DNA of 64,000 bases from positions 1 to 64,000 of the forward strand of contig NZ_BJYT01000012.1 in the NCBI RefSeq assembly GCF_007991655.1, read 5' to 3'. Position numbers and translations under genes: made by a program. The notes below the pieces were generated by a model. It did not search any database. It was given only the letters and a program-made list of their open reading frames with translations, and was not told the origin of the DNA. Below, piece after piece: positions 4,100 to 54,830 of the stretch. Numbering within the stretch: position 1 is the stretch's first letter; every line of letters begins with the position of its first letter. The DNA is from Segetibacter aerophilus. GTDB taxonomy: Bacteria; Bacteroidota; Bacteroidia; Chitinophagales; Chitinophagaceae.

Positions 4100-4119
4100 G
4101 TTGTGTCACTCACTTGTAC
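4100..4119 (-). repeat. Dispersed repeat copy 1 (GTGACAC subtype)
   Basis: Reverse-complement match, 20 of 20, to the core GTACAAGWGWGYGACRCAAC shared by ten intergenic sites in this window. It is followed in the repeat orientation by GATGTTGA. It lies in the divergent region between the DUF47 gene and the TonB receptor gene, 130 bp before the receptor start and outside the Pho-box-like array. Confidence 0.85.
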
Positions 4120-4177
4120 AAATTATTTTATTGCAGCTTTCAACCTACAACTTCAGATACTTCTATTAATACTGCGA

Positions 4178-4226
4178 TAACATTTAAGTAACAGTAGGAT
4201 AATGTTGAGGTAACAGTACCATAACA
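4178..4226 (+). promoter_or_regulatory. Pho-box-like operator, five TAACA units at 11-bp spacing
   Basis: TAACA occurs at 4178, 4189, 4211 and 4222, and a one-unit variant TAATG at 4200: five units at an exact 11-bp period. PhoB/PhoP-family regulators bind direct repeats with this period (for example TTAACA-type repeats in Bacillus). The array ends 10 bp before a TAnnTTTG promoter element, where an activator would contact RNA polymerase, and the controlled gene lies in a phosphate-themed block. That a PhoB-like protein binds here is inference; no such regulator is encoded in the window. Confidence 0.65.
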
Positions 4227-4235
4227 TCGCCCTGA

Positions 4236-4243
4236 TACTTTTG
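4236..4243 (+). promoter_or_regulatory. Promoter -7 element of the TonB receptor gene
   Basis: TACTTTTG matches the Bacteroidota -7 consensus TAnnTTTG exactly. It ends six bases before the ATG at 4249, so transcription would start at or next to the start codon and the mRNA may be leaderless. There is no obvious -33 TTTG because the Pho-box-like array occupies that place, as expected for an activator-dependent promoter. Confidence 0.6.
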
Positions 4244-4248
4244 CTACA

Positions 4249-7083
4249 ATGAAACTAACTAAAGTGAAAGTCTATATTTTCTTTTGTACAACTGCACTCA
4301 CACTTTTCTCTTACTCACTATTAGCTCAAGCCGCGTCTAAGATCAGTGGTAAAATATTTAACCTTAAAAACGATCCTCTTTCAGGTGCGTCTGTCACCAT
4401 TGAAGGTTTATCAACCGGAACATCTACAGATGTAGAAGGCAGTTTTGTGTTAACTGTCGCTTCTTCTAAAACTGTAACCCTTAAAGTATCTGCTGTAGGC
4501 TATAAGGAAAAGACTGTTGCAGACATAATTGTGGCGTCCGGTAAAACCGAAGAGCTGAATATTGTTTTAGAAGAAGCAAGTAAAAAACTTGAAAATGTGG
4601 TAGTCAAATCTTCAGGAGCAAGAAGAGAATCTGTGAATGCATTAATCGCATATCAGAAAAACACAAGCACTGTTGCACAGGTAATTTCTGCTGAAGCCAT
4701 CAGAAGATCGCCGGACAAAAACACAGGGGAGATACTAAAGAGAATACCGGGAACGTCTATACAGGAAGGTAAATATCTTGTTGTAAGAGGATTGAGCGAT
4801 CGCTATAACCAAGCGATGTTAAACGGAGTTTTATTAAGCAGCACTGAGCCCGACAGAAAGACTTTCTCATTTGATATTTTTCCTGCAGCAATGATTGATA
4901 ATATGATTATCAATAAGTCGTTTATCCCCGAACTAAGCGGCGAGTGGGCCGGGGGTTTGGTACAGGTTAATACTAAAGATGTTCCTTCAACCAATTTTCT
5001 AAATGTTCAAATAGGTACAGGTTTCAATACGCAAACAATAGGTAAAGACTTTTATACTTATCGTGGAGGAAAACTCGATTGGCTCGGAATTGATGATGGC
5101 GCAAGAGGTTTGCCAACAGGCCTTCCAACTAAATCTCGATTCAGTGACCTGGGTTCTACCAAAGCACAGCAAAATGCTTTTGGAAGAGAATTCGAAAATA
5201 TTTGGTCCGCTAACAAGAATTCTACAAATATTATCCCTGTTCTAAACAAGTCTTTTCAACTGAGTGGCGGGCTGAATAAGAGGCTGTCTACTAACAACAA
5301 ATTAGGGGCAATATTTGCAATTACGTATAATCAACAAAACAGGAGAACCGAGTTTCAAAATACACTCTACTCTTTTCAGAACAATGTTGCCAGTGTAAAT
5401 TTTGACTACAATAATAATAAGTATAGCCAGGATGTTTTGTGGGGAGCTTTAGGAAATGTTACCCTGCAATTGGGAGCTAATCATAAGATCTCATTTAAGA
5501 ACCTCGCCAATATAAACTCGACAGATTATGTAACTCACAGAACAGGTAAAGACTTCGAGTTTAATTCCTCTTTGGGCGAGAATATTAGGGCGACAGAGTT
5601 AGCCCTTAAATCAAATACATTTTTTAATACCCAGTTATCGGGCGATCATAATTTTACAACCTTGCAATCGAAATTGCACTGGTACGGCAGCTTCAATATT
5701 CTCGATCAATACATTCCTGACCAGCGCCGTTTGCAATACAACCAGAACCCGGAAGTTACCAACACCCCTTATGTTGCATTGATTGCAACTTCCAAAACTT
5801 CGCAGAAATCGGGAAGCAGATATTATGGTTTTTTGAACGACTATATTTATAATACCGGCGCTGATGTGGCTACATCTTTTAAAATGTTTGATTTGAACCA
5901 GACAGTAAAGGCTGGTTATTTCTTCCAGGTAAAAGACAGGCTGTTTGACTCAAGACCATTTGCCATTTACATTCCGGCTGGCGAGAACCCGGCTCTGCAA
6001 ACCCTTCCCGCAGAAACGATCTTTAACGCAGAGAATTTCGGAAACGGGGAAGATAATAAGTTCGCGTTTAATGAACTTGCAGGCGACAGGTTCAGGTATG
6101 TTGCCAATACAATTCTTAATGCCGGCTTCCTGCAGTTTGATAACCAATTCTCGGATAAACTAAGAGCTACGTGGGGTGTGAGGGTCGAAGATTATGACCA
6201 GGTAATTGGTAGCCTAAAGCAAAGTGATCCAAGACATTTACACACACGTACAACTGATCTTCTTCCAGGGTTTAACCTGACTTATAAAGTAACCAATAGC
6301 GCCAATATTCGTTTGTCCGGTTCACAGACTGTCATCCGTCCTGAGTTTAGGGAACTGAGTGATTTTCAGTTTTACGATTTCGAACTAGGCGCAACGGTAG
6401 CAGGATATAGAAACCTGGTTCGCACAAAAGTGACCAACGCAGATTTGAGATATGAACTATATCCAAGAGCAGGGGAACTTTTCACGGTAGGTGTGTTTTA
6501 TAAGTATTTTAAAAATCCTATTGAATCTTATTTTAATGCTGTTGCCGGCGGAGGTAGTTCTTATAACTTCCTGAATGCTGATAAAGCAAAAGGTTTCGGT
6601 GCAGAATTGGAATTGAGAAAGAAATTAGACTTTACTGAAGCACTGCGCAACTTTACTTTTCAAACCAATCTTTCTTACATATACAATAGGGTAGAAAGCC
6701 AGGCTGCACAAATTAAGCGGCCAATGCAAGGACAAAGTCCCTATGTGTTCAATGCTTCACTGCAATATGACATTGAGAAATTGGGATTGAACACTACACT
6801 TCTTTATAATCAAATTGGTGATAGAATTTTATATGTCGGCGGCGACAACACTCCGCCAATTTGGGAAGCTTCACGTCCTTTAATTGACTTTCAGATAGCT
6901 AAGAAAATCATGAAAAATAAAGGCGAACTAAAGCTGAACGCTTCTGATATCTTAAACCAGGCGACCAACTATTACGTCGACCTTAACCAAAACAGCACAT
7001 ACGATAAAGGTCAGGATGCTTTAGCCATCAGAAGAAAATTCGGTACAAATGTTAGCTTTTCATTTGCCTATAATACACGGTAG
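4249..7083 (+). CDS. TonB-dependent outer membrane receptor with carboxypeptidase-regulatory-like N-domain
   Basis: This is a ligand-gated outer-membrane channel of 944 aa. Residues 1-28 form a signal peptide ending LLAQA. Residues ~32-115 form the CarboxypepD_reg-like beta-sandwich (ISGKIFNLKNDPLSGASV). Then comes a plug domain with RIPGTSIQEGKYLVVRGLSD, followed by a 22-stranded-type barrel ending in FSFAYNTR. The substrate cannot be read from the sequence. Context points to phosphate or an organophosphate: PiT/DUF47 genes are divergent, a Pho-box-like array precedes it, and ppk1 and a secreted phosphoesterase follow. The gene 128 bp downstream encodes a surface lipoprotein that may be its partner. 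Family call firm; substrate is inference. Confidence 0.9.
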   Translation: MKLTKVKVYIFFCTTALTLFSYSLLAQAASKISGKIFNLKNDPLSGASVTIEGLSTGTSTDVEGSFVLTVASSKTVTLKVSAVGYKEKTVADIIVASGKTEELNIVLEEASKKLENVVVKSSGARRESVNALIAYQKNTSTVAQVISAEAIRRSPDKNTGEILKRIPGTSIQEGKYLVVRGLSDRYNQAMLNGVLLSSTEPDRKTFSFDIFPAAMIDNMIINKSFIPELSGEWAGGLVQVNTKDVPSTNFLNVQIGTGFNTQTIGKDFYTYRGGKLDWLGIDDGARGLPTGLPTKSRFSDLGSTKAQQNAFGREFENIWSANKNSTNIIPVLNKSFQLSGGLNKRLSTNNKLGAIFAITYNQQNRRTEFQNTLYSFQNNVASVNFDYNNNKYSQDVLWGALGNVTLQLGANHKISFKNLANINSTDYVTHRTGKDFEFNSSLGENIRATELALKSNTFFNTQLSGDHNFTTLQSKLHWYGSFNILDQYIPDQRRLQYNQNPEVTNTPYVALIATSKTSQKSGSRYYGFLNDYIYNTGADVATSFKMFDLNQTVKAGYFFQVKDRLFDSRPFAIYIPAGENPALQTLPAETIFNAENFGNGEDNKFAFNELAGDRFRYVANTILNAGFLQFDNQFSDKLRATWGVRVEDYDQVIGSLKQSDPRHLHTRTTDLLPGFNLTYKVTNSANIRLSGSQTVIRPEFRELSDFQFYDFELGATVAGYRNLVRTKVTNADLRYELYPRAGELFTVGVFYKYFKNPIESYFNAVAGGGSSYNFLNADKAKGFGAELELRKKLDFTEALRNFTFQTNLSYIYNRVESQAAQIKRPMQGQSPYVFNASLQYDIEKLGLNTTLLYNQIGDRILYVGGDNTPPIWEASRPLIDFQIAKKIMKNKGELKLNASDILNQATNYYVDLNQNSTYDKGQDALAIRRKFGTNVSFSFAYNTR

Positions 7084-7120
7084 AAGCAAAACATGTAAGT
7101 AGTCGAAAGCGGTTACAACA

Positions 7121-7140
7121 GTACAAGAGTGCGACGCAAT
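7121..7140 (+). repeat. Dispersed repeat copy 2 (GCGACGC subtype)
   Basis: 19 of 20 match to the core (the last C is T). It lies between the TonB receptor and lipoprotein genes. The following bases (CAAAGTT, then TATTGCCGC about 20 bp on) resemble those after copy 3, so the real unit may be longer than the core. Confidence 0.8.
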
Positions 7141-7211
7141 CAAAGTTCAATTCTGTTCTATTGCCGCATTCAAAAAACACTTCATAAAACACTTAAAGTA
7201 AAAATAAACAC

Positions 7212-8621: not shown

Positions 8622-8640
8622 TTCTCTTATATGCAGGATC

Positions 8641-8677
8641 ATAAAAAAGCTATCGTTTAATGCGATAGCTTTTTTAT
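8641..8677. terminator. Bidirectional terminator between lipoprotein gene and ppk1
   Basis: A perfect 15-bp inverted repeat (8641-8655 and 8663-8677, 7-nt loop) has A6 on one side and T6 on the other. It separates two convergent genes and can serve both. Confidence 0.88.
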
Positions 8678-8712
8678 GATGTCTATTATGAACTTATAGT
8701 TTACACAGCCTT

Positions 8713-14524: not shown

Positions 14525-14652
14525 GATACAAAATTACAGTAATTTGTTGCAAGCATCGTTGGTAAGCTCTACCAGGGTAACGCTAGCCTACTATTTTCAA
14601 GCAGAATTTTCAGTATTAATAATCGGTTAATGCCGCATCGGTGCTTTCTGTG

Positions 14653-14672
14653 GCACAAGTGTGCGACGCAAC
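14653..14672 (+). repeat. Dispersed repeat copy 3 (GCGACGC subtype)
   Basis: 19 of 20 match to the core (GTAC is GCAC). It lies in the divergent region between the DUF433 gene and dnaX, followed by AAAAGTTAAGTAGTA and TTCTGCCGC, shared in part with copies 2 and 7. Confidence 0.82.
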
Positions 14673-14813
14673 AAAAGTTAAGTAGTATTTCTGCCGCTGG
14701 CAACCAAAAAATTAATAACAAAACATAGGCTCGTGTGTGAACAATGAGCATTTTATCCTTTACCAAAGTTTGCTAATTTGCACCTCAACCCGTTCTTGAG
14801 CGAGAGAAATATT

Positions 14814-16670
14814 ATGGAAAAATTTATTGTTTCAGCCAGAAAATACAGGCCTCAGAATTTTAATACTGTTGTTGGTCAAAGCCATATCACTACTACTTTA
14901 AAGAATGCTATCCGCAATCATCAACTCGCTCACGCCTTTTTGTTTTGCGGTCCCCGTGGGGTAGGTAAGACCACTTGTGCCCGTATTTTGGCTAAAACGA
15001 TTAACTGCGAGAATATTCAGCCAGATGGTGAAGCTTGTAATGTTTGTCATAGCTGCGTGTCATTCAACGAAGGAACTTCTCTGAACATTCATGAGCTTGA
15101 TGCTGCCAGCAACAATTCGGTAGAAGATATACGGGCTCTTGTCGAGCAGGTGCGATTTGCCCCGCAAGCTGGTAAATACAAGATCTACATTGTGGATGAG
15201 GTGCACATGCTTAGTACGAGTGCTTTTAATGCATTTTTGAAAACTTTGGAAGAACCACCTTCTTATGCCATTTTTATTTTAGCTACCACGGAAAAGCATA
15301 AGATACTTCCTACCATTTTAAGTCGCTGCCAGATCTTCGATTTCAAACGTATTACTAACAACGATACGGTTGAGCACTTACAGGAAATTGCAGGAAAAGA
15401 AGATATCCATTCAGAAAAGGCAGCGTTGCAATTGATCGCTCAGAAGAGTGAGGGTTGTATGAGAGACTCTCTGAGTATACTCGATAAGATCGTAAGTTTT
15501 ACGAATGGCGATGTTACCTATCAGAATACGCTTGAGCACCTGAATATCCTCGACCACGATTATTATTTTAAGCTGCTTGATACCCAGATCAACCAGGACA
15601 TGGCAGGATCGATGCTGCTGTACGACGAAATAAACCGCAAGGGTTTTGAAGGAGATCTCGTTCTGAACGGTTATGCTGAATTTATCCGGAATGTATTGGT
15701 TTGTCAAAATCCGAGAGCTGCTTCTTTGCTTGATGTGGTTGAAGGGCTTCAACCGAAATATATAGAGACAGCAAAAAAGGTTAGCCCTGCTTACCTGGTA
15801 AGTGCTCTTAATATTTTAAACGAAGCCGAGATTAATTATAAGATGGCCCGGAACAAACGGCTGCACGTGGAGATGACGATGATCAAGCTTACTTTTTTGC
15901 AGCAGGCGATAGAACTGTCTTTCGACAACCAGACTTCTACGCTCGTAAAAAAAAAGCGGGTTAGCGGTCCTGTAGCTGTTAAATTCGAGCAGTTACAATC
16001 CCTGCAAATTAAATCTGCACCTGGCACTAGTACTCCTCCAACAGGAGCGAAATTATTTATTGATCCAAAACAACCGGTGCTTGCGTCGGTAACTGAAGTT
16101 CAAAAAGCTGCTGTAAAAGTGGGTGCTATTGCTGATATTCCTGCTACTGCAAATGAAACGCTTGGTGCTACCGCTACAGTAGCAGCGCCACCGAAACCAA
16201 AAGAAGCTTTAACAGGCAAAAAGTCACTTCTTCAAAGTTTACGCGATAAGCATATTTCAAATAAAACAAGCGAGGATATAAAGGAAGCTGTTCCGGTAAC
16301 CGAAGAAAACCTGAAAGAACATTGGAAGTGTTTTACCGAAAAACTAAAACAGCAACTAAAACATTCGGTAGTAACTGTCTTTAATAATGCAGCGTTGCAA
16401 GTTGTAAATGAGCAGCATTTTTCTGTGACCGTTTCCGCCAGTCTTGAACAAAAATTTATCGAGCAGGAAAAATTGCCTTTGCTTGAGTACTTGAAAAGCT
16501 GTTTTCATAACCGCAATATTGGCTTTACTATACACATTAATGAACAGCCAAAAGAAATTGTAATCTCAGAAGCAACGTTGACAACACGCGAAAAGTACCA
16601 ACGCGTTATCGAACAGTATCCGATGATTAAAGAGTTGAAAGATCGTTTGAAGCTTGAGTTAGATTATTAA
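14814..16670 (+). CDS. dnaX: DNA polymerase III subunit gamma/tau
   Basis: This AAA+ clamp-loader subunit loads the sliding clamp and tethers polymerase III. Seen: Walker A GPRGVGKTTCARIL, a four-Cys zinc module (CENIQPDGEACNVCHSC), the DEVH Walker B box and the SRC sensor. Its long C-terminal part (after ~residue 370) is Pro/Ala/Lys-rich and ends in a folded tau-like domain. I chose the ATG at 14814 (MEKFIVSARKYRPQ), which matches family N-termini; the longest frame starts 36 bp earlier. No slippery A-tract/stem combination for a programmed gamma frameshift was recognised, though the A9 run at ~15949 (Val-Lys-Lys-Lys-Lys-Arg) is a possible slippage site. Confidence 0.93.
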   Translation: MEKFIVSARKYRPQNFNTVVGQSHITTTLKNAIRNHQLAHAFLFCGPRGVGKTTCARILAKTINCENIQPDGEACNVCHSCVSFNEGTSLNIHELDAASNNSVEDIRALVEQVRFAPQAGKYKIYIVDEVHMLSTSAFNAFLKTLEEPPSYAIFILATTEKHKILPTILSRCQIFDFKRITNNDTVEHLQEIAGKEDIHSEKAALQLIAQKSEGCMRDSLSILDKIVSFTNGDVTYQNTLEHLNILDHDYYFKLLDTQINQDMAGSMLLYDEINRKGFEGDLVLNGYAEFIRNVLVCQNPRAASLLDVVEGLQPKYIETAKKVSPAYLVSALNILNEAEINYKMARNKRLHVEMTMIKLTFLQQAIELSFDNQTSTLVKKKRVSGPVAVKFEQLQSLQIKSAPGTSTPPTGAKLFIDPKQPVLASVTEVQKAAVKVGAIADIPATANETLGATATVAAPPKPKEALTGKKSLLQSLRDKHISNKTSEDIKEAVPVTEENLKEHWKCFTEKLKQQLKHSVVTVFNNAALQVVNEQHFSVTVSASLEQKFIEQEKLPLLEYLKSCFHNRNIGFTIHINEQPKEIVISEATLTTREKYQRVIEQYPMIKELKDRLKLELDY

Positions 16671-16702
16671 TGTTGCATAACTTCGGCTCGCTCATCGACA
16701 TC

Positions 16703-16722
16703 GTTGTGTCACTCACTTATAC
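16703..16722 (-). repeat. Dispersed repeat copy 4 (GTGACAC subtype)
   Basis: Reverse-complement match, 19 of 20 (GTAC is GTAT). It lies in the short convergent space between the dnaX and cyclase stop codons, 33 bp after dnaX. It is followed by GATGTCGATGAG in repeat orientation. Confidence 0.82.
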
Positions 16723-16775
16723 TGTTGCACACACTAGCAGCTTTTGTTAAAGCGGGGCAAGGAAAGATTGCTTAT

Positions 16776-22861: not shown

Positions 22862-23410
22862 TAACCAAACTTGTTTTAAAACGTAATATTTTTCTCTTTG
22901 TTCTTTCCTCCGTTTGTCATCACGCCATCTAATCTTCTTACAAGTTGATTTAGAAGCGTTCTATTTTTCTAAATAAACATATTTATACAAAAAATTCAAG
23001 TGACGAACCGTAAAAACTGTAACAACAAAGTCAAATCCTTTGCCGTCTACTTTAACTGTTGCAACAGCGTTAATCAGAAATGTCATTAAGGCGCAACCAG
23101 GTCATGGGGAAACATTTCTACAAGAAACGGGCCTATTAATGTTTTAACCAATTGATATACAAAAGGCTATAATATCAGTTGTAAAGAGTAAAGTTATTAA
23201 TCCGCGCTTTTGTTTTATTCATCCTGGCTGACTCTGGCTAATCCGAACTTCTTTATCTCACAATTTTTCAATTGACAATATCACGTAAAAAAGCGACAGC
23301 AGCTTTTCGGCTTATCCCAAGTTTTATTCGCTTATGTAAATACGTAATCATTCGTACTTATGTGCTTTCTGATGCTGTTAAATCTTTTGAGTTTTGACAA
23401 AACACTTGTT
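22862..23410. other. Divergent intergenic region, 0.55 kb
   Basis: AT-rich DNA between the phosphoesterase-barrel gene (minus) and the OMP barrel gene (plus). It must carry both promoters. I found no copy of the dispersed repeat, no convincing terminator and no ORF with coding character here. Confidence 0.4.
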
Positions 23411-25867
23411 ATGCTAAAACAATTACTCTTTTGTTTCTTGATTTTTTTAACTTTTTCAGCATTTTCTCAAACTACTAAAACCAACGTTTCTATTACAGTA
23501 CTAGGCGAGGGGAAAGCTCCTTTAGAAGGGGCTACCGCAGAATTATTACGAGTCAAAGATTCTGCTATTGTAAAAACTGCCATTACTGATAACACCGGCC
23601 TGGCAGAATTTGAAAAGGTCAGTCCGGGAAAATTCCTTGTTCGAGTAACATCAGTCAATTATTCCACCTATTTCTCTGAACCATTTGAAGTCGGCACCGA
23701 GCGGGTGACTATTCCCCCGGCGAGCCTAACTATGAAAACGGAAGCGGCGTTAAAAGAAGTGACTGTTGTTACTCGTAAACCCTTCATCCAAAAGTTAACA
23801 GACCGGATTGTTGTCAACGTAGAAAACAGTATTGTAAATGCCGGTAGTACCGCCATGGAAGTATTAGAAAGATCTCCGGGTGTTTCAGTAGATCAAAACG
23901 ACAATATAAGTTTAAGAGGCAGGGCTGGTGTGGTGATTATGATTGATGGTCGCATCACCCCTATGACAGGCGCTAGTTTAGCCAGTTATTTAAAAGGTTT
24001 GCCGAGCAATGCAATCGAAAGAATCGATCTTATCACCAACCCTTCATCAAAATACGATGCGGCAGGAAACTCGGGAATTATCGACATCCGGATGAAAAAA
24101 GATCAACGACTTGGATTGAATGGGACTTTCAACGCTGGGTATGGACAAGGAGTTTATCCTAAGGCAAATGCCGGCACTACGTTTAACTACCGCAATAAGG
24201 TTGTAAACATCTTTGGCAATTATAATTATAGCTATCGAAAAGGTTTAAACCATTTACTGCTCGAAAGGAACTTTTTCTCAAACAGCAACTACGATGGAGG
24301 AGACGAAAAAGATAATTACATGACTGCTCCATCCAACAATAACACTGCAAGGTTTGGAGCAGATTTCTTTGCAGGCAAAAAAACAATCCTTGGGTTTGTA
24401 GTCAATTCAAGCTTTAATGACATTGGCAGAACTAACCATAATAGCGCTGTTGTGATGAACAATGTAAAGCAGGCTGCCTCGACTTTTAATACGGATATTA
24501 GCAGCCATGACAAGTTTAATAACTCAGTAATTAACGCAAACATCAAGCATACATTTGATAAGACTGGCAGGGAATTGACTGCCGACGCGGACTATGGGGT
24601 TTTCAATAACAGATCCATTTCGAGTACACTCACCAGGTATTATTTTCTAAATGGTACTAGTCAAAAACCCACCTATATTTTAAATGGCGACCAGGACGGA
24701 AAGCTGACTATTAAAACAGCAAAAGCCGATTATGTAAACCCCTTGAAAAAAGATGGACGAATAGAAGCAGGCATTAAGACAAGCGTTGTTTCATCGGGCA
24801 ACGATGCGAAATTTTTTGACGTGAGTTCCGGCCGCCCCGTTAACGACACTACTAAGACCAACCACTTTAATTATGATGAAAGCAACAATGCTGCTTATAT
24901 CAATTTCAGCCAGCAGTTTAAGAAATTTAGTCTACAATTCGGCCTGCGAGGTGAGCAGACAAACATTAAAACAAAACAGGTAAAAGGAAATGTATCGTGG
25001 GACTCCAGTTACTTTCAATTATTCCCCAGCGCCTTTATCAACTATAAACTTAAGCCTGATCAAACACTAGGCGTATCAGTAAGTCGGCGTATTGACAGAC
25101 CTGGTTATAACCAACTTAATCCCTTTCTATTCTTAATAGATATCAGCACTTATAGTACCGGCGCCCCGGGCTTGCTGCCGCAGTTTACATGGTCGTATGA
25201 ACTCAGTTATACTTTAAAGCAGTTGAACTTTACGTTGGGTTATAGCCATACAAAGCACATTCAGTCAACTGCCATTATACCCTTTAAAAGTGTGTTTCCT
25301 AATGTGCCTATCAACGACACAAATGTCACCTTGCAAATACCTGTTAACCTTACTTCATCAGACTATTTTGGCTTAACAATCGCGGCTCCAATTAAGGTCA
25401 ATAATTGGTGGAACATAATGAACAACGCAGATCTTTATTATATTAACTATAAAGGAAATCTTGCCAATACTCCTTTAAACAACGGGTCTCCCACTGCGCG
25501 CATCAGCACTAATAATTCCTTTACGTTTAAAAAGGGATGGGCGAGCGAGCTGAACTTTAATTACTCCAGCAGAAGCCGTAGCGGTTATATGGTATTAGAA
25601 CCTCAGTGGGGTTTATCGGCGGGGGTACAAAAAAGCATTCTTCAAAACAAAGGAACTGTTCGCTTCAACGTAACAGATATTTTTTGGACCAACCTTCCGA
25701 GAGCCACAATCACTTATAACAACTATATAGAAAACTGGCACGCATACCGCGAAACAAGGGTAGCTAATCTTTCATTTACCTATCGCTTTGGAAACAATAA
25801 AGTAGCTGCATCACGAAGAAGAACGACAGCCTCTGAGGAAGAAAGGCGGCGGGCAGGAGGGAATTAA
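23411..25867 (+). CDS. Outer membrane beta-barrel family protein (TonB-receptor-like)
   Basis: An 818-aa outer-membrane protein when started at the ATG at 23411 (MLKQLLFCFLIFLTFSAFSQ), which begins with a clean signal peptide; the longest frame adds 17 hydrophobic residues upstream. Order: a carboxypeptidase-regulatory-like domain (~20-110, with EGATAELLRVKD), a TonB plug-like domain (~120-240, including RSPGVSVDQNDNISLRGRAG), then a large barrel of the OMP_b-brl_3 type (IDRPGYNQLNPFLFLID). The C-terminus has an unusual Arg/Glu-rich tail (ASRRRTTASEEERRR) instead of ending on the last strand, common in this subfamily. The substrate is unknown. It is a single gene with its own terminator. Confidence 0.87.
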   Translation: MLKQLLFCFLIFLTFSAFSQTTKTNVSITVLGEGKAPLEGATAELLRVKDSAIVKTAITDNTGLAEFEKVSPGKFLVRVTSVNYSTYFSEPFEVGTERVTIPPASLTMKTEAALKEVTVVTRKPFIQKLTDRIVVNVENSIVNAGSTAMEVLERSPGVSVDQNDNISLRGRAGVVIMIDGRITPMTGASLASYLKGLPSNAIERIDLITNPSSKYDAAGNSGIIDIRMKKDQRLGLNGTFNAGYGQGVYPKANAGTTFNYRNKVVNIFGNYNYSYRKGLNHLLLERNFFSNSNYDGGDEKDNYMTAPSNNNTARFGADFFAGKKTILGFVVNSSFNDIGRTNHNSAVVMNNVKQAASTFNTDISSHDKFNNSVINANIKHTFDKTGRELTADADYGVFNNRSISSTLTRYYFLNGTSQKPTYILNGDQDGKLTIKTAKADYVNPLKKDGRIEAGIKTSVVSSGNDAKFFDVSSGRPVNDTTKTNHFNYDESNNAAYINFSQQFKKFSLQFGLRGEQTNIKTKQVKGNVSWDSSYFQLFPSAFINYKLKPDQTLGVSVSRRIDRPGYNQLNPFLFLIDISTYSTGAPGLLPQFTWSYELSYTLKQLNFTLGYSHTKHIQSTAIIPFKSVFPNVPINDTNVTLQIPVNLTSSDYFGLTIAAPIKVNNWWNIMNNADLYYINYKGNLANTPLNNGSPTARISTNNSFTFKKGWASELNFNYSSRSRSGYMVLEPQWGLSAGVQKSILQNKGTVRFNVTDIFWTNLPRATITYNNYIENWHAYRETRVANLSFTYRFGNNKVAASRRRTTASEEERRRAGGN

Positions 25868-25898
25868 GCAGTTGCAAAAAAAGGTGTAGAAAAGCTTC

Positions 25899-25928
25899 AA
25901 AGCCGGGTGAGATTATTCACCCGGCTTT
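25899..25928 (+). terminator. Hairpin terminator after the OMP barrel gene
   Basis: A perfect 12-bp inverted repeat (25899-25910 and 25917-25928, 6-nt loop) is followed by a T-rich CTTGTATTT tail. The tail is weaker than in other terminators here. Confidence 0.7.
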
Positions 25929-25998
25929 CTTGTATTTCCTCCTTGGCATGCTGAAGTTTATTGTTTTTGTAACGCGCATTTGTACTTTTCTCAACATC

Positions 25999-26018
25999 GT
26001 TGTGTCACTCTCTTGTAC
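25999..26018 (-). repeat. Dispersed repeat copy 5 (GTGACAC subtype)
   Basis: Reverse-complement match, 20 of 20, followed by GATGTTGAG in repeat orientation. It lies between the OMP barrel terminator and the DGPF gene, two genes in tandem. Confidence 0.85.
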
Positions 26019-26160
26019 TTTAATTTATTTAGGGCAGCATTTTAAAAATGCCGAAGAATAAAACCTGCAGAAAAAATTTTTCGACCATTTTGTCCAATTC
26101 CCTTTAACCCGTTTGTTATGGATTTATAATTAATTTTCATAACTATTAAATTTCAACATC

Positions 26161-26514
26161 ATGGATGAGTTCGCATTAATTTTTAGACACGAAGACGGTC
26201 AAAAAGTAGCTTCACCAGAACAAATGCAAGCGTGGATGAAACAAACGATGGACTGGATAGGAGGCATAGCTGCGCAAGACAAATTTGTAAGCGGCACAGG
26301 TTTACCTTTTGAGGACAGCAAGGTAGTACGTTACAACAAAATCGTAACGAACGGACCATTTGGAGACATAAAGGAAACCATTGGCGGATTTGTCATCGTG
26401 AGGGCAGAGTCAGTTGAAGAGGCAGTTGAATTTGCAAAGGGAAGCCCCGTACTACAAGGCGAAGGAAATAGCGTTGAAGTAAGAAAAATCGCTAAAAGCG
26501 ATGGTGTTCACTAA
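26161..26514 (+). CDS. YCII-related (DGPF-type) protein
   Basis: A 117-aa YciI-like protein of the kind often called DGPF protein: MDEFALIFRHEDG start, a central NGPFGDIKETIGGFVIV segment (the DGPF signature appears as NGPF) and a final EVRKIAK. It is encoded 44 bp before an ECF sigma factor with a long C-terminal extension. This pairing is the hallmark of ECF group 42, where DGPF proteins are thought to be targets or partners of the sigma factor. Biochemical activity is not known. Confidence 0.87.
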   Translation: MDEFALIFRHEDGQKVASPEQMQAWMKQTMDWIGGIAAQDKFVSGTGLPFEDSKVVRYNKIVTNGPFGDIKETIGGFVIVRAESVEEAVEFAKGSPVLQGEGNSVEVRKIAKSDGVH

Positions 26515-26526
26515 AGACTATGAAGA

Positions 26527-26552
26527 GCCTTTGCAGCAATGCAAAGGCCCTT
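26527..26552 (+). terminator. Attenuator-like hairpin between the DGPF and sigma genes
   Basis: A perfect 9-bp stem (26527-26535 and 26540-26548) with a GCAA tetraloop is followed by CCTTTTAATT. It lies between the DGPF stop codon and the chosen ATG of the sigma factor. The T-run is short, so partial termination or mRNA processing that lowers sigma-factor levels is more likely than full termination. Confidence 0.55.
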
Positions 26553-26558
26553 TTAATT

Positions 26559-27785
26559 ATGGAGCAAAACGAATTAATACCACACCTGTTTAGAACAGAA
26601 TACAGAAAAATAACAGCTGTTCTATGCAAGCTGTTTGGTATAGATCACATTGAAGTTGCAGAAGACTTAGCCAGCGAAACCTTTTTGCTGGCAGTAGAAA
26701 CATGGAGTTACAAAGGCTTGCCTGAAAACCCGACCGCATGGCTTTATTACGTTGCAAAGAATAAGGCCAAAAATCATTTAAACCGTGACAGCATTTTTAC
26801 AAGCAAAATCACAACCGACCTAAAATTATCATCGCAAGGTTTCGAGGAAATCGAGATAGATTTATCAGAAAAGAATATTACGGACAGCCAGTTACAAATG
26901 TTGTTTGCGCTTTGTCATCCATCAATACCAACTGAGGCTCAAATCGGGCTTGCCCTTCGTATTCTATGCGGCTTTGGTATTGATGAAATTGCTGACGCTT
27001 TTTTAACTAATAAGGAAACGGTCAACAAAAGACTCTTTAGAGCCAAAGAAAAACTGCGGCAGGAAAAAGTAAAGATTGAGTTTCCGCGGCGAGCCGAAAT
27101 CGATAAAAGATTAGATGTGGTTCTGCTCACTTTATACTTGCTCTTTAGCGAAGGCTATTATTCTGAAAGCGAGGACAAGGTGTTGCGTAAAGACTTATGT
27201 TTCGAAGCCATGCGCATAACTCATCTTCTTACCGAAAATGAGCAAACCAATCAACCCAAGGTGAACGCTTTACTTGCCCTGATGTGTTTTCATGCTTCGC
27301 GTTTTGATGCAAGAAAGGATGAAAGTGGCGAGATTATTTTGTACCAGGACCAGGACGAAACATTGTGGAACCAGGAACTGGTGCAAAAGGGTGTTTGCTT
27401 TTTTAAAGAAGCCTCACGTGGAGATAAACTTTCTAAATACCACCTGGAAGCTGGCATTGCTTACTGGCATACCATTAAGACTGACACAAAAGAAAAGTGG
27501 GAGAATATTTTACAACTCTATAACCGTCTGCTGCAATTGCAGTATTCGCCCATTGCCGCCCTCAACAGAACGTATGCTCTCTCAAAAGCCAACGGAATTA
27601 CAGAAGCTATTACAGAAGCAGAGAAGTTAAACTTAACAGGTAATCTTTTCTATTTCGCCTTGCTGGGAGAACTTTATAAAAGCGTTGATAAGCAGAAAGC
27701 GAAAGCACATTTCGAACAAGCTTATTCGCTGGCTAAAACAAAGACGGACCGGCAAGTGATTCGAAAGCAGATTGAAAACCTATGA
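26559..27785 (+). CDS. ECF42-type RNA polymerase sigma factor with TPR-like extension
   Basis: A sigma factor of 408 aa, about twice the length of an ordinary ECF protein. Region 2 spans about residues 8-75 (TEYRKITAVLCKLFG, AEDLASETFLLAV) and region 4 about 105-165 (ALRILCGFGIDEIADAFLTNKETVNKRL). The remaining ~230 residues are helical, with TPR-like repeats (YNRLLQLQYSPIAALNRTYALSKANG), as in ECF42/SigJ-like proteins, which have no separate anti-sigma factor. I chose ATG 26559 because it follows the intergenic hairpin; the longest frame would start inside the DGPF-sigma junction. The C-terminal domain is thought to control activity. The DGPF gene upstream is the likely regulon member. Confidence 0.88.
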   Translation: MEQNELIPHLFRTEYRKITAVLCKLFGIDHIEVAEDLASETFLLAVETWSYKGLPENPTAWLYYVAKNKAKNHLNRDSIFTSKITTDLKLSSQGFEEIEIDLSEKNITDSQLQMLFALCHPSIPTEAQIGLALRILCGFGIDEIADAFLTNKETVNKRLFRAKEKLRQEKVKIEFPRRAEIDKRLDVVLLTLYLLFSEGYYSESEDKVLRKDLCFEAMRITHLLTENEQTNQPKVNALLALMCFHASRFDARKDESGEIILYQDQDETLWNQELVQKGVCFFKEASRGDKLSKYHLEAGIAYWHTIKTDTKEKWENILQLYNRLLQLQYSPIAALNRTYALSKANGITEAITEAEKLNLTGNLFYFALLGELYKSVDKQKAKAHFEQAYSLAKTKTDRQVIRKQIENL

Positions 27786-27818
27786 GGCTAGGTTTGCAGT
27801 GGATCTAGTATTGATGTC

Positions 27819-27838
27819 GTTGAAGTGTGCGACGCAAC
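27819..27838 (+). repeat. Dispersed repeat copy 6 (GCGACGC subtype, degenerate left end)
   Basis: 18 of 20 match to the core; GTAC is GTTG. It lies between the convergent sigma-factor and AraC genes, 34 bp after the sigma-factor stop codon. Confidence 0.72.
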
Positions 27839-27880
27839 GAGGTACGAATAATGTTCTTAAAGCCTGGTCAAAAAAGTCTC

Positions 27881-28723
27881 CTACTCCACTTTTCCATGCT
27901 TATACAATTCCTGGAAAGTCTTGAAATATTTGTCTCCCACAAACTGTTGCAGATGCTTTGCAAAATGACTGTAGTCATAATACCCAAATTGAAAATACTG
28001 GAAGGTAGACGGCGAAGCAGTAAGGCTGATGACTGCCTCTCTTATCCGCATCGTTTGAAGTGCCTGCTTGCTGCTAAAACTGGTAGTTGCCCGGAAGTAT
28101 CGTTGCAGTGTTCGATTGCTGATTTTATACTTTTCAGCGAGCTTTTCAACCGGGCTATCAAATTCTTTTTTCTGCAGGCTATTGACCAATATCTCTGTCA
28201 CGGTGCTTACATAATTTAACGAACCCGTGTGCTTATTTACAAGCTCTTCATAATGCTGAAAGATGAGCCCGACTCTGTCAGAGAATGAGCCGGCGTTCTT
28301 TACTTTGTTTATGATATTTCGGTCAATTAAATAAGCGAGGGGATAGACAAAATCAGTGTACTCGGAGAAGTCTACATCTTTTTCAAAGACAATTGGACAA
28401 ACCTTAAACTTGATTCCAAAAAGCCTGTTGCCGGCAGAATGATGGCAGGTGATATAATGATGACGCGGAATAAAACCGTCGTTTTTTACCTCGAGAGAAC
28501 TCTTCTCGAGTTGCATGACGAAAGGAGTACCCAGGTTGATGATATATGTATACCCAATGTTTGGAAAAAGAACATCTGCGAAACCATCAGGGTGTTCAGA
28601 AAGAAGGTGGTCAAAATTAGTTTCCCAACAAAAATCTATGTAAGACGACAATGCACCAGTTGCCCACGTTCTGTGGTACTTGTATTCAAAATGTTCGCGA
28701 TCAATAAACTCCAGGTACTCCAT
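27881..28723 (-). CDS. AraC family transcriptional regulator
   Basis: A 280-aa regulator. The N-terminal ~170 residues resemble the DUF6597-type sensor domain (HPDGFADVLFPNIGYTYIIN, GIKFKVCPIVFE). Residues ~185-275 form the AraC double helix-turn-helix, including VEKLAEKYKISNRTLQRYF and the second helix pair ending SHFAKHLQQFVGDKYFKTFQ (canonical form: D-x-S-H-F-x-R-x-F-K). The effector and targets are unknown. It is convergent with the ECF42 gene and divergent from the SET gene, so it may control either neighbour, but nothing in the sequence proves this. Confidence 0.88.
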   Translation of the reverse strand: MEYLEFIDREHFEYKYHRTWATGALSSYIDFCWETNFDHLLSEHPDGFADVLFPNIGYTYIINLGTPFVMQLEKSSLEVKNDGFIPRHHYITCHHSAGNRLFGIKFKVCPIVFEKDVDFSEYTDFVYPLAYLIDRNIINKVKNAGSFSDRVGLIFQHYEELVNKHTGSLNYVSTVTEILVNSLQKKEFDSPVEKLAEKYKISNRTLQRYFRATTSFSSKQALQTMRIREAVISLTASPSTFQYFQFGYYDYSHFAKHLQQFVGDKYFKTFQELYKHGKVE

Positions 28724-28925
28724 AATCTCCTCCTCGTAACCTTAATTATAAATAGAAATGATAGTAAAAATAAACGTGGTAGTAATACTATGAAAATTTT
28801 AGAAAATGCACTTTTTTTACTGAAGGAACTATGCCTACAATTCTTCTGCTGATTCTTTGCCACAATAATAATTGATAATAGGAGCGTCGCTTTGCATTGG
28901 CATTAAAATTATATAGTTTGTTAAT

Positions 28926-29567
28926 ATGATCCATCCTCATACGAAGCTTAAATTTATCAGCCCCGAAATAGGTTATGGGGTAGTGGCAACGAAGCTTATT
29001 CCAAAAGGAACAATTACATGGGCCTTCGATCAACTTGACCAGGTATTTACTCCCCAGCGAGTTAGTGGGATGGACGAAGTCTACAAAGACATTTTGCATA
29101 AGTATACGTATCGGGATAATAAGGGCGATCTAATCCTTTGCTGGGATCATTCAAGGTTCGTAAACCATAGCTTTAATTCGAATTGCATTACAACTGCTTA
29201 CAACTTTGAGTTGGCAGTAAGAGATATTTACCCGGGAGAAGAATTGACGGATGACTATGGTTACTTAAATTGTCTTGAGCCTTTTGAATGTCTTCCTGAA
29301 CCCAACACTTCGCGCACACATGTGATGCCCGATGATTTGCTGCATTACTACAAAGAGTGGGATGAAAAAGTGGCGAGGGCCTTTGAGTATTTTAACAGCC
29401 TGCAGCAGCCGCTCTCATTTTTAATCGAACCCGCATACCGTAAAAAAGTCGGTTCGATCGCAAATGGCAAAGAGCCAATGGATTCTATTTTAAACTGCTA
29501 TTATAGCGAAGACGAAAGCAAGATGACAGTGAAAGAAGAATTGCTGAATAAGTACAGCTATGCTTAA
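28926..29567 (+). CDS. SET-domain protein, putative lysine methyltransferase
   Basis: A 213-aa protein whose first ~115 residues form a compact SET domain: IGYGVVATKLIPKGT, then the SAM-binding RFVNHSFNSNC motif (Asn80, His81) and GEELTDDYGY with the catalytic-type Tyr111. Two Cys residues follow (~116 and 122), reminiscent of a minimal post-SET segment, then a helical tail. SET enzymes transfer a methyl group from S-adenosylmethionine to protein lysine. They are common in eukaryotes and scattered in bacteria. The target here is unknown. It stands alone between AraC and the aminotransferase and has no visible terminator. Confidence 0.83.
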   Translation: MIHPHTKLKFISPEIGYGVVATKLIPKGTITWAFDQLDQVFTPQRVSGMDEVYKDILHKYTYRDNKGDLILCWDHSRFVNHSFNSNCITTAYNFELAVRDIYPGEELTDDYGYLNCLEPFECLPEPNTSRTHVMPDDLLHYYKEWDEKVARAFEYFNSLQQPLSFLIEPAYRKKVGSIANGKEPMDSILNCYYSEDESKMTVKEELLNKYSYA

Positions 29568-29626
29568 GCTAAATAGGAATTTTTGTTCGTTTTTCCTTTA
29601 AACTACTACTGTTGGTGATGCTGGTA

Positions 29627-30481
29627 CTAAGCATCTTTTAGAGGCAACTTTTCGTGTTTGTAATATTCTTCCTCCAATTGCTTGAAAGCTGTATAAAGCT
29701 CACGGGTAATTTTTCCCGGCTTCCCATTACCAACAATAACATCATCGATTTCTAAAACCGGCAAAAGTCTTTTAGTTGAACTGGTCAAAAAAACTTCAGA
29801 GGCATTCTTTAAATCCTCAAGAGTTACCGTCCTTTCCTCAGCTTTATAATTTCTACCTGCAATGTGGAGTACCTTCTTTCTTGTGATGCCGTGCAAAACA
29901 TTTTTGCCCGGAGTTACAACCGCCCCTTCTTTTGTTACTATAAAAACGTTAGACCTGGGAAACTCGAGTACCTCCCCGTTTTGGTGATACAGTACATCAT
30001 CTGCTTTCTGCTCAACAAGCCTGTTCTGAAGATAGATTGCCATGAGGTAATTGATAGATTTTACTTCAGGTACATCGCGCAAATATTCGTGTAGAATTAT
30101 CCTGATGCCCTTCTCGAATTTTTCTTCAGAAGAAATTTCTACCGGCTGTTGGGTCATAATGAAATTAGGAGTGCCGGGCTCAAATCCATCCTGAGAATAT
30201 CCTCCTGTTAAGATCAATTTAAAACCTGAAGTTTCAATCTGGTTGCGATCAATCATTTCATAAATAATTGTTTTCAACTCTTCTCGCGTGTGTCTTGGCT
30301 GCAGACTTAGTAAGGTGGCGGAATTGAAAAACCGATCAAGATAATCATCCAAAAAAAGAGGGACATAACGATACGTTCGAAAAAAATCAAAGATGCCAAA
30401 ACCCCTTTGAACTGAAAGATCGCTTATACCAATAGAAGCTTCCTTTTCATCGATAAAACGGTCATTTATAAATACAATCAT
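29627..30481 (-). CDS. Class IV aminotransferase
   Basis: A PLP enzyme of the branched-chain/D-amino-acid/aminodeoxychorismate lyase group, 284 aa from the ATG at 30481 (MIVFINDRF), which fits the usual short N-terminus; an upstream ATG at 30508 would add nine residues. Seen: the RGFGIFDFFRTY segment, the Schiff-base Lys in VKSINYLMAIY and the phosphate-cup motif GVLEFPRSNVF-like (GEVLEFPRSNVFIV), plus SSTKRLLPV. Substrate choice within class IV cannot be read reliably; ilvE, dat and pabC are all possible. It follows nadB closely on the same strand, so they probably share a transcript. Confidence 0.85.
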   Translation of the reverse strand: MIVFINDRFIDEKEASIGISDLSVQRGFGIFDFFRTYRYVPLFLDDYLDRFFNSATLLSLQPRHTREELKTIIYEMIDRNQIETSGFKLILTGGYSQDGFEPGTPNFIMTQQPVEISSEEKFEKGIRIILHEYLRDVPEVKSINYLMAIYLQNRLVEQKADDVLYHQNGEVLEFPRSNVFIVTKEGAVVTPGKNVLHGITRKKVLHIAGRNYKAEERTVTLEDLKNASEVFLTSSTKRLLPVLEIDDVIVGNGKPGKITRELYTAFKQLEEEYYKHEKLPLKDA

Positions 30482-32134: not shown

Positions 32135-32276
32135 GCAGTTCGTTTCTTACTTAAAGAGTTTTTACTTTTAATAATTTTTAAAGATAAATGTCTTTAAACA
32201 TATAGTCGAAGAAAGAGAATTGTTAGAGGTATGAAGTTTTTTTAGAGCCCTTTGGCATTGCTACTATTAAACATTT

Positions 32277-32296
32277 GTTGCGTCGCACTCTTGTAC
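32277..32296 (-). repeat. Dispersed repeat copy 7 (GCGACGC subtype)
   Basis: Reverse-complement match, 20 of 20, followed by AAATGTTTAATAGTAG in repeat orientation, similar to the sequence after copy 3. It lies between nadB and tRNA-Leu, which point away from each other. A short GACACAACATG about 30 bp away at ~32328 may be a fragment of another copy. Confidence 0.85.
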
Positions 32297-32403
32297 AGTA
32301 AGTCCAGCCGGAAGCGCAAAACCTACGACACAACATGCCATAACAGAAAGGAAGGTTTTAAAATTTTTTATTAAATCGTGTCTTTTGTTTTTATGAAATC
32401 CCC

Positions 32404-32418: not shown

Positions 32419-32500
32419 GCGGATGTGGCGAAATTGGCAGACGCACTAGACTTAGGATCTAGCGCCGCAAGGCATGTAGGTTCGACCCCTATCATCCGCA
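32419..32500 (+). tRNA. tRNA-Leu (anticodon UAG)
   Basis: A class II tRNA with a 7-bp acceptor stem (GCGGATG pairing with CATCCGC, discriminator A). The D arm contains TGGCGAAATTGGCAGACGCA. The anticodon stem CTAGA/TCTAG encloses the loop CTTAGGA, giving anticodon TAG. A long variable arm and the T arm GTAGGTTCGACCCCTAT follow. It reads CUA and, by wobble, other CUN leucine codons. The CCA end is not encoded. It is followed at once by a terminator, so it is a single-gene unit. Confidence 0.97.
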
Positions 32501-32505
32501 CTAAG

Positions 32506-40633: not shown

Positions 40634-40765
40634 ATTACAAACCTACAGGAAATTGAACAATCTTATGTGCGAGACAAGTCGCAAAAAGAGGATACTTGAA
40701 TATTAGCCTTTTTGAAAAAACGGGGTAATTTCTTTTAAACCAACTTCAGCACTTCACCAAGCATC

Positions 40766-40785
40766 GTTGTGTCACACTCTTGTAC
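40766..40785 (-). repeat. Dispersed repeat copy 8 (GTGACAC core with T at position 10)
   Basis: Reverse-complement match, 20 of 20. It has GTGACAC like subtype A but T at core position 10 like subtype B, so it links the two. It lies 29 bp past the stop of the 121-aa gene, in a tandem minus-strand gap. Confidence 0.85.
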
Positions 40786-40814
40786 GGAAACTTTTAAAGC
40801 GACAGAAGCGGGAC

Positions 40815-41180: not shown

Positions 41181-41303
41181 ACACTTCTGCCGTTCACCGG
41201 CGCTCTTTTAATAATACAAAAGTAATTCTGGCGACATTTTCTTGTTCTGTCAATTATCCACAAAAATGTTTCAAAGCTGGGATGGACGATAAGAGAACTA
41301 AAA

Positions 41304-41323
41304 GTTGCAGGGTGCGACGCAAC
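41304..41323 (+). repeat. Dispersed repeat copy 9 (GCGACGC subtype, degenerate)
   Basis: 16 of 20 match to the core: the left half is worn (GTTGCAGGG), while GTGCGACGCAAC is intact. It lies between the 121-aa gene and porX. Confidence 0.65.
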
Positions 41324-41372
41324 AACTGATCATTAGAGTTTCTATAGTTGACTACAAAAAAAGATCATTAGA

Positions 41373-42971: not shown

Positions 42972-42993
42972 CCCTTTTTAATACAGCCAATAG

Positions 42994-45467: not shown

Positions 45468-45475
45468 TACTTTCG
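45468..45475 (+). promoter_or_regulatory. Candidate -7 element of lpxC-fabZ
   Basis: TACTTTCG, a TAnnTTTG variant with C at position 7 of the octamer, ends 17 bp before the ATG. It suggests that lpxC-fabZ can be transcribed separately from lpxD. Confidence 0.5.
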
Positions 45476-45491
45476 TGGCCTTTAGGAGCTT

Positions 45492-48308: not shown

Positions 48309-48321
48309 AATCCATTGATAC

Positions 48322-49020: not shown

Positions 49021-49032
49021 CGGCGTAAAATT

Positions 49033-49060
49033 AAAAACAAAAACCCCGGAAAAACCGGGG
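49033..49060 (-). terminator. Terminator of dnaB
   Basis: A GC-rich 6-bp stem (49044-49049 and 49055-49060) with a 5-nt loop. On the minus strand it is followed by TTTTTGTTTTT. It lies between dnaB and rsmE. Confidence 0.82.
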
Positions 49061-49089
49061 CTAATATATAAATGATTAGTCGCTAAGAA

Positions 49090-50688: not shown

Positions 50689-50798
50689 TGTTTTTTCTTT
50701 TGTTCTTTGTACTGTTTCTGATCCTTAAACATCGCTATCACCTCGCATTTTCATTTTTCCCCATGTTACCGGATTGCTATCAGATTTTTATAGGACGG

Positions 50799-50806
50799 CG
50801 AATATA
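50799..50806 (-). promoter_or_regulatory. Candidate -7 element of dnaB
   Basis: Reverse complement reads TATATTCG, a TAnnTTTG variant with one C, about 111 bp before the dnaB ATG. Confidence 0.45.
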
Positions 50807-51219
50807 GGGTCTTAAAAAGTGAGGAAAAAACTTTTGCTACAGGTATAATTTTCCTATTTTATTCAACAGACTTCTTCTACTAAAATCTCTCTTTACTAAC
50901 ATAAAGAAGGGAGATGTACACAAGCTAAAAAAGTTTTCGACCCTTTTGCAATTTCAATTCACACAACCTGTGAAGAAAGAATTATTCGGGAAAAGTTGGT
51001 TTGGAACAGTATTAATCTTAATTCAAAGGGGAAAAAATTCCACAATTTTAAGAAAATTTTAAATCATTAGGAAGGTTTTATTTGGTAAAATAGAGGGCTA
51101 TGAAGGATTTTGAGAGGCATTTTAAAAATTGACAAAAGACAGCAGGGACAGTAAAAATTTTAAAAGTAGAACCTGTTACAGGTGTGTGTGCAGAATTATG
51201 AATGATGTAGCCCACCCGC

Positions 51220-51227
51220 TATATTTG
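51220..51227 (+). promoter_or_regulatory. -7 element of pheT
   Basis: TATATTTG matches TAnnTTTG, ending 20 bp before the ATG, so the leader would be about 15 nt. Confidence 0.6.
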
Positions 51228-51247
51228 CATACGGCAAAAAAAGTTAC

Positions 51248-53674: not shown

Positions 53675-53692
53675 CTTGCAAATACAATTTGT

Positions 53693-53980
53693 ATGGAAGA
53701 CATGCAGGAGCAAATACAGCGAATTGAAACTAAAGTGCAGCAATTACTGAAAGAGTACAACAACGCTCAAAAGGAAGTTCAGCGGTTGCAAAAAGAAAAC
53801 GAGAACCTCGCGAGGCAATTACAAACACAGACCGAGCAGGCGAATAAACTTCATCAGCGGGTTGATGCGCAAACCTTTTCTTCGTCAAACATGGAGGATA
53901 AAGCTAAAAAGGACCTGGAAAAGCGCATTAACACTTACTTGAAAGACATTGATAAATGCCTTGCACTACTACATTCTTAA
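53693..53980 (+). CDS. Small coiled-coil protein, ZapB-like
   Basis: A 95-aa protein that is one long coiled coil for residues ~1-60 (IETKVQQLLKEYNNAQKEVQ) followed by a short helix (KDLEKRINTYLKDIDKCLAL). It is not a recognised family by sequence, but size, structure and position directly before zapA suggest a ZapB-like partner at the division ring. It lies 18 bp after pheT and 4 bp before the chosen zapA start. Confidence 0.8.
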   Translation: MEDMQEQIQRIETKVQQLLKEYNNAQKEVQRLQKENENLARQLQTQTEQANKLHQRVDAQTFSSSNMEDKAKKDLEKRINTYLKDIDKCLALLHS

Positions 53981-53984
53981 CATT

Positions 53985-54281
53985 ATGTCTAAGCCGCTCA
54001 TTCCCATAAATATAATTGTAGCTGACCGGAGTTATAGGCTAAAGATTGATCCCGATGATGAGGAAGTGGTAAGAAGGACTTTAAAGATTATCAATGAGAA
54101 AATTATTGACTACAAAACCAACTTTGCCGGAAAAGACATGCAGGATTACGTGTCAATGGTGTTACTATGGTATGCAACGGAACAACAAAAACCTACTCCG
54201 GAGATGACCTCCCAAACAGGAAGCCAGGCTAAACTGGACAAACTTGAAGAACTACTTAATAAGGCCATTCCTATAAAATAA
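53985..54281 (+). CDS. zapA: Cell division protein ZapA
   Basis: A 98-aa protein from ATG 53985 (MSKPLIPINIIVADRSYRL); the longest frame would overlap the coiled-coil gene by 32 bp. ZapA bundles FtsZ filaments. The N-terminal beta-hairpin (PINIIVADRSYRLKIDPDDE), the long coiled-coil helix (RTLKIINEKIIDYKTN) and the length are all typical. It is the last gene of the pheT run. Confidence 0.88.
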   Translation: MSKPLIPINIIVADRSYRLKIDPDDEEVVRRTLKIINEKIIDYKTNFAGKDMQDYVSMVLLWYATEQQKPTPEMTSQTGSQAKLDKLEELLNKAIPIK

Positions 54282-54830
54282 AGAGCCCCTGCTTTCACAG
54301 AGGCCGTAGGGTACGGATACAACAGTTTTGCAACAGCTAGTATCCAGACTAAATATACTACATATACTTCACTTTTTTCTTTCCTAAAGGCTACTATATC
54401 TAAATCTAATTTTTAGCTTTCGCTACCAGTAAAGTTTAATAAAGACCAGCTAGCGCGTCTCTTCCTTTTGACCTTTCTTAAATAAAAATTGAAAAAGTCG
54501 AAATTGAAAAAATGTAATTAAGTAGCCCGCAATTTTTACAAATAGCAAATATGGGCGAATAAACATTTAAAGTACAAGTGAGTGACACAACAATGGTAAG
54601 ACATCGGCTAATGTTTGTACCAAAAACAAACCTATCTAATAAGAGAAAAAAATGGCAGAACCCCGAAAGAAGGTACGTTTTAGCACACAACCTCCTTTGG
54701 CGTAACCCTGCTTTATCAACCGCTTTTATCGTTCATAATAATTATCTTCGCGAACCTATACAATCATTTATAACAGAAATGGAGGGTATAACCATATGAA
54801 ATTAAACTTTTTAAAAACAAACAGAAAAGC
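54282..54830. other. 0.55-kb intergenic region after zapA, possible ncRNA
   Basis: No ORF of coding quality. A hairpin GGATAC...GTATCC (about 54315-54346, with an AACAG/CAACAGC interior) lies just downstream of zapA, and GGCTACT (~54394) can pair with AGTAGCC (~54520). In other bacteria the 6S RNA gene lies next to zapA, so this place is a candidate for 6S or another regulatory RNA. I cannot show the conserved 6S secondary structure by eye, so this is only a pointer. Repeat copy 10 is inside the region. Confidence 0.3.
54572..54591 (+). repeat. Dispersed repeat copy 10 (GTGACAC subtype)
   Basis: 20 of 20 match to the core, followed by AATGGTAAGACATC. It lies 240 bp before rny, in a tandem plus-strand gap. 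Confidence 0.85.

Follow-up and report, generated by a model that had tools for sequence, protein, structure and literature searches.

Adjacent copies of a short intergenic repeat in the family Chitinophagaceae almost always point in opposite directions when they lie less than 1.5 kb apart: all 76 such pairs were inverted, whereas copies placed at random in the same gaps, each with a random direction, would give 63 direct and 63 inverted pairs. Because inverted pairs are thus near expectation and direct ones absent below 1.5 kb, it is the direct pairs that are missing and not the inverted pairs that are in excess. This direction rule is the distinctive and most informative property of the element, and it is new here; a published description of such a rule was found for no known repeat family. 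The element family itself is widespread in Chitinophagaceae, on chromosomes as well as on phages.

The original prediction was drawn from a window of Segetibacter aerophilus DNA (the whole stretch that was analyzed, 64,000 nucleotides) and concerned a 20-bp repeat, with a genome scan named as the test that could refute it. In that scan (5.89 Mb, 79 contigs), the core 20-mer gave 602 copies at ≤2 mismatches (305 forward, 297 reverse) against 0 matches for a reversed-pattern control at the same threshold, which demonstrates genome-wide enrichment. Nine congeners carried 4 (genome G008, at ≤2 mismatches), 88, 109, 141, 304, 715, 719, 945, and 1345 core copies, so the level of amplification is apparently very different among species. 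Core matches were found in Segetibacter, Ferruginibacter, Foetidibacter, Pinibacter, and further Chitinophagaceae, with 0-712 copies in the other genera of the family, and the scan of other families of the same order gave 0 copies except for one match in one genome. In the literature, the exact core strings occurred only in three unrelated papers, and no description or library entry of the repeat family was found.

The predicted 20-bp repeat is real and conserved, but it is only the core of a longer element and not the whole repeat. Information content exceeds background between about -19 and +57 relative to the core, giving a conserved unit of ~76 bp composed of a left arm (GCYGAATARNRA), the core (GTACAAGWGWGYGACRCAAC), and a right arm ending in GCYGGnnAMCAAAAA; 3' of the core, GATG or an AAAG-like sequence is followed by GCYGG and then by the A-rich end. 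There are three core types, A (GTGAGTGACACAAC), B (GWGTGCGACGCAAC), and the rare C (GTGTGACACAAC). In 507 of 514 copies, positions Y11 and R15 form a Watson-Crick match (C-G in 254, T-A in 253); GATG was part of the search pattern for some of this set but does not overlap Y11 or R15. Minor related subfamilies retain the right half and differ on the left: TGCGACGCAAC preceded by other sequence, GAACGGAGCGTCGCAAC, and GAACTGAGCGTAGCAAC. The last two differ by coupled substitutions (G to T, C to A) flanking GAGCGT and were seen in G000 C1, G001, and G006 (L043-L082, L097-L114, L147-L160). In genome G012, copies are 80-87% alike over ~80 bp and the element has therefore been copied as a unit, the discrete dispersal expected of a miniature transposable element (MITE), while in S. 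aerophilus likeness is left only in the core and part of the arms. Two G012 copies on contig C4 (L369 near 5044, L361 near 13131) have the right-arm sequence CCTGCTGCCGGGC recurring after an inserted terminator-like hairpin, and another repeat, around CATTGCGAGGA..GAACGAAGCAATCTG in inverted pairs, adjoins some copies (G006 C45 near 65724, L100; L152; L336).

The ten window copies are listed below by element, core, and strand.

4062..4138 (core 4100-4119), minus strand: copy 1, type A (GTGAGTGACACAAC), in a divergent gap; orthologous core 20/20 in G006 and 19/20 in G009
7102..7178 (core 7121-7140), plus strand: copy 2, type B (GTGCGACGCAA-), in a tandem gap; orthologues in G006 and G009
14634..14710 (core 14653-14672), plus strand: copy 3, type B, upstream of a dnaX-like gene
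16665..16741 (core 16703-16722), minus strand: copy 4, type A, in a convergent gap
25961..26037 (core 25999-26018), minus strand: copy 5, type A, in a tandem gap
27800..27876 (core 27819-27838), plus strand: copy 6, type B with a degenerate left end, in a convergent gap
32239..32315 (core 32277-32296), minus strand: copy 7, type B, between a gene start and a tRNA-Leu
40728..40804 (core 40766-40785), minus strand: copy 8, type C (GTGTGACACAAC), in a tandem gap
41285..41361 (core 41304-41323), plus strand: copy 9, left half of the core divergent
54553..54629 (core 54572-54591), plus strand: copy 10, type A, in a tandem gap

Nine of these ten predicted copies were recovered at ≤3 mismatches (0.07 expected by chance), and the tenth, copy 9, has 4 mismatches and is considered real because the 10-mer GCGACGCAAC is intact and a relative carries an orthologue in the corresponding position. 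Each of eight copies has 0-1 mismatches, as had been described, and the degeneracy at the left end was confirmed for copies 6 (27819) and 9 (41304). All ten also lie outside our gene calls, which cover about 80% of the window with a simple codon model as the caller and not the >85% initially given. Neighbors within the window already reflect the rule, with five pairs closer than 4.5 kb inverted and four pairs beyond 7 kb direct; the dnaX-like gene is flanked by the mutually inverted copies 3 and 4, and copies 8 and 9 are mutually inverted 538 bp apart. The tRNA-Leu (32419-32501) lies ~100 bp from copy 7. Relative to contig C45 of G006, window positions 1128-22891 align in reverse and 29656-63900 forward, with a rearrangement breakpoint at 22891-29656 in which copies 5 and 6 fall.

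The restriction to intergenic gaps was borne out on a larger scale, as 0 of 389 copies lay inside genes called with our own codon model in 2.04 Mb from six genomes. Both orientations and all gap contexts were again represented: in tandem gaps 101 copies ran with gene direction and 111 against, 71 were in convergent gaps, and 58 in divergent gaps. The even orientation in tandem gaps agrees with the earlier view that a simple promoter or terminator alone is insufficient. Plus and minus copies were likewise balanced along 700 kb of one-signed GC skew, showing no orientation bias. A coding origin was considered and rejected: third positions are invariant in the open frame through the core (GAC, never GAT), which points to constraint on nucleotides.

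Constraint on the core is also evident at orthologous sites. At 15 sites shared in collinear blocks with G006, which are about 75-85% identical depending on the block, core identity was 0.90, compared with 0.40 in the 20 bp before and 0.52 in the 20 bp after; these flank identities are ungapped and therefore somewhat lowered by indels, although gapped flanks were also clearly below the core. The core is therefore constrained. The comparison of orthologous gaps that had been suggested revealed filled and empty sites between congeners, with presence or absence of the element at eight G006 sites and in two G000/G002 comparisons. The gap at 7121, for example, holds an element in G000, G006, and G009 but is short and lacks one in G002 and G008. 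Empty sites thus exist, with flanks too diverged for base-exact insertion boundaries in the target-site check.

Beyond 1.5 kb, direct pairs reappear gradually, making up 2 of 24 pairs at 1.5-2 kb, 10 of 44 at 2-3 kb, 16 of 47 at 3-4 kb, and 29 of 50 at 4-6 kb. When the divergent subfamilies were added below 1.5 kb, 118 of 120 pairs were inverted and 2 direct, and a separate locus collection, counted by hand with two heavily sampled MAGs left out and containing a few other Segetibacter and mostly other genera, gave 20 inverted and 2 direct pairs. The exclusion applies to both direct orders, and most close pairs have their 5' ends toward each other (-+ 39 vs +- 7 below 600 bp). Core types A and B pair as by chance, and the rule holds across core types. 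Phages had 2 direct and 4 inverted pairs. Most assemblies are short-read, and direct pairs whose sequences differ are unlikely to have been lost through an assembly artifact; a control repeat family for the direction test was sought in these genomes, and none had enough copies. No inversion between inverted pairs was seen in the collinear blocks compared, which makes it unlikely that an enzyme acts on inverted sites to the same extent.

Several simple accounts of the rule were rejected: (i) mobile gene cassettes between inverted copies, since the intervening genes are ordinary (dnaK, dnaX, era, and rlmN-like, with names read from their sequences); (ii) a hairpin between inverted copies as the selected trait, since A and B types pair at random; (iii) lagging-strand-specific single-strand transposition, since the rule excludes both direct orders and, where GC skew keeps one sign, plus and minus copies are balanced; and (iv) decay of redundant direct copies, since decayed direct relics were not in excess near intact copies.

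Exact cores also occur in 26 viral stretches, several of the phage copies being on contigs with terminase, portal, DNA polymerase, or primase-helicase genes. The upstream stop codon in phages often falls within the left arm, 10-16 bp before the core, and related phages carry the same downstream gene and element behind three different upstream genes; their homology begins again at about -21. The element is therefore a gene-exchange junction, by homologous or other recombination. The exchanged phage gene is bounded at its other end by a second common sequence, CAGTTTGTTTAACGAAAAAAATAAAGCAGCATG, in L371, L375, L376, and L378 (about 1180-1220 in L371/L378, 850-980 in L375/L376). On chromosomes, a copy lies inside 6 of 11 gene-sized indels between the congeners G000 and G006, but also in 9 of 16 smaller gaps; therefore, the indel counts alone prove nothing.

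Comparison with known classes of elements was mostly negative. The single-stranded element folds no better than its shuffles, with only a 2-3 bp stem possible; no covariation beyond the Y11-R15 pair was found across copies; and own-versus-cross tests revealed no paired terminal segments that could form terminal inverted repeats. Y1/RAYT genes are present in most relatives without adjoining copies: of the 30 Y1 loci read, among them 1 of the 3 in S. aerophilus, 27 had no copy within 1.5 kb, and the other 3 are about what density predicts. The RAYT or transposase-like gene ending in the motif that the original prediction had envisaged was thus sought at Y1 loci and no link emerged, while its statement that these are not classic REP sequences stands, the element being without a long palindrome or a RAYT partner at Y1 loci. 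The integron attC boxes (R'' RYYYAAC, R' GTTRRRY) are not matched by the core consensus RCRCAAC, and the occurrence inside genes that characterizes uptake sequences was not seen. Searches of Rfam gave no match over elements, and known phage and plasmid collections none to the element. Flavo-1 RNA-like sub-threshold matches (E 0.0003-0.006) occur in G012 at L364 5903-5984, 6575-6669, and 17875-17956 and at L368 7826-7919, not overlapping elements.

The best fit to these observations, which we favor tentatively and at rather less than an even chance, is that ~76-bp elements were mobilized, that their core is read directionally by a putative protein, and that close direct neighbors were removed or never established; in this account, we infer the existence of the protein, the deletion step, and how the elements spread. 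The core is probably recognized by a protein in a direction-dependent manner, two same-direction copies within about 1.5-2 kb would be removed or fail to become established, and inverted pairs would be stable. Most simply, a recombinase or transposase-like enzyme would delete the DNA between directly repeated sites, and the alternative to such deletion would be selection against directly repeated neighbors. A protein-binding role, one of those first proposed, is compatible with the constraint seen on the core at orthologous sites and with the symmetry of the covarying Y11-R15 pair. The proposed non-autonomous mobile element is favored by the unit-like copies, the filled and empty sites, and the 4-1345 copies in the genus, but no mobilizing gene, terminal repeats, or target duplications were shown. 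That one candidate family-wide enzyme would excise DNA between any two same-direction elements within about 1.5-2 kb is itself doubtful. Most site-specific recombinases need identical crossover bases, and the free mixing of core types A and B counts against a site-specific recombinase, as the 2 direct pairs beside 4 inverted ones in phages count against the favored account; the search for a cognate enzyme gave no candidate, with Y1/RAYT loci not flanked by copies. If true, however, excision would imply genome-wide orientation-coded sites common to hosts and phages and used at gene-exchange junctions.

The main rival is a directional cis-acting host site (insulator, roadblock, or nucleoid anchor) beside which a same-direction copy would be redundant and decay. 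This is unlikely, even though the strong core constraint, the independence of the rule from core type, and the facing 5' ends of close pairs favor it, because copies lack orientation bias to genes or replication, decayed direct copies are not in excess near intact ones, and a site important to the host would not readily be expected to range from 4 to 1345 copies within one genus. A selfish element of the ordinary MITE or REP type, with close direct copies lost through generic short-repeat deletion and no special core protein at work, could account for copies alike as units, their intergenic bias, variable copy number, and carriage by phages. It is less likely again and ranks third because the direction rule is independent of similarity: the rule is equally strong between core types and subfamilies with only about 10 bp of core in common and reaches 1.5 kb and beyond, across ordinary genes, while core constraint long after insertion is unexpected for a dead copy and palindrome, terminal repeats, and RAYT link are all missing. 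The phage junctions, the position of the upstream stop codon, and the copies in gene-sized indels could be attributed to a homology patch for modular gene exchange, like mosaic-phage linkers, spread by phages and recombination; such a patch alone leaves the direction rule unexplained, and the smaller gaps with copies mean that no indel enrichment is shown, making it improbable. The Y11-R15 covariation might suggest a structured or cis-regulatory RNA motif, which is highly improbable given the folding, the lack of other covariation and of Rfam matches over elements, and the absence of orientation bias to genes; the earlier idea of a transcript-processing signal fails on the same grounds, with no fold, one covarying pair only, and no orientation bias to genes. 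Least probable of all is a DNA uptake sequence as in Haemophilus or Neisseria, to which the short core, A-rich flanks, and many copies would correspond but not the absence from called genes, the copying as ~80-bp units, or the short and empty orthologous sites.

If an active enzyme lies behind the direction rule, these genomes would contain hundreds to >1000 sites recognized by a recombination or transposition system not yet described, with effects on gene order and phage exchange. If host selection does, Bacteroidota would have in the element a directional site for chromosome organization or insulation. In both cases, the repeat family, which is abundant and for which no published description was found, can now be tested with a two-site stability assay.

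Among known systems, the short repeats described best are the GTAG/CGTC-tagged REPs, which extend to Bacteroidetes (PMC3733652). REPs and REPINs with RAYT resemble the element in being short, intergenic, present in hundreds of copies, and inverted in close pairs, but the element lacks both a long palindrome and a stem-adjacent GTAG or CGTC tag, leaves RAYT genes unflanked, and is mostly single, with inverted pairs not over-abundant and direct ones missing. Like MITEs, ERIC, RU-1/RU-2, BOX, and RUP, it is non-coding, of the order of 100 bp, intergenic, and dispersed as a unit; unlike them, it has no terminal inverted repeats that we could see, a core conserved at orthologous sites, and a direction rule over 1.5 kb. 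The uptake sequences of Haemophilus and Neisseria share its very high copy number, fixed core, and A-rich flanks, whereas the element is absent from genes and copied as a unit. Phage copies recall integron attC sites in lying just 3' of a gene and sometimes overlapping its stop codon, but the core reads RCRCAAC against RYYYAAC and, in place of direct-repeat arrays, direct repeats are excluded. Phage linker or boundary sequences at module junctions are similar in that phage gene-exchange breakpoints fall at the element, which, in contrast, also occurs in hundreds of chromosomal copies with a direction rule. The element thus belongs with the short interspersed intergenic repeats and is set apart from them by its direction rule.
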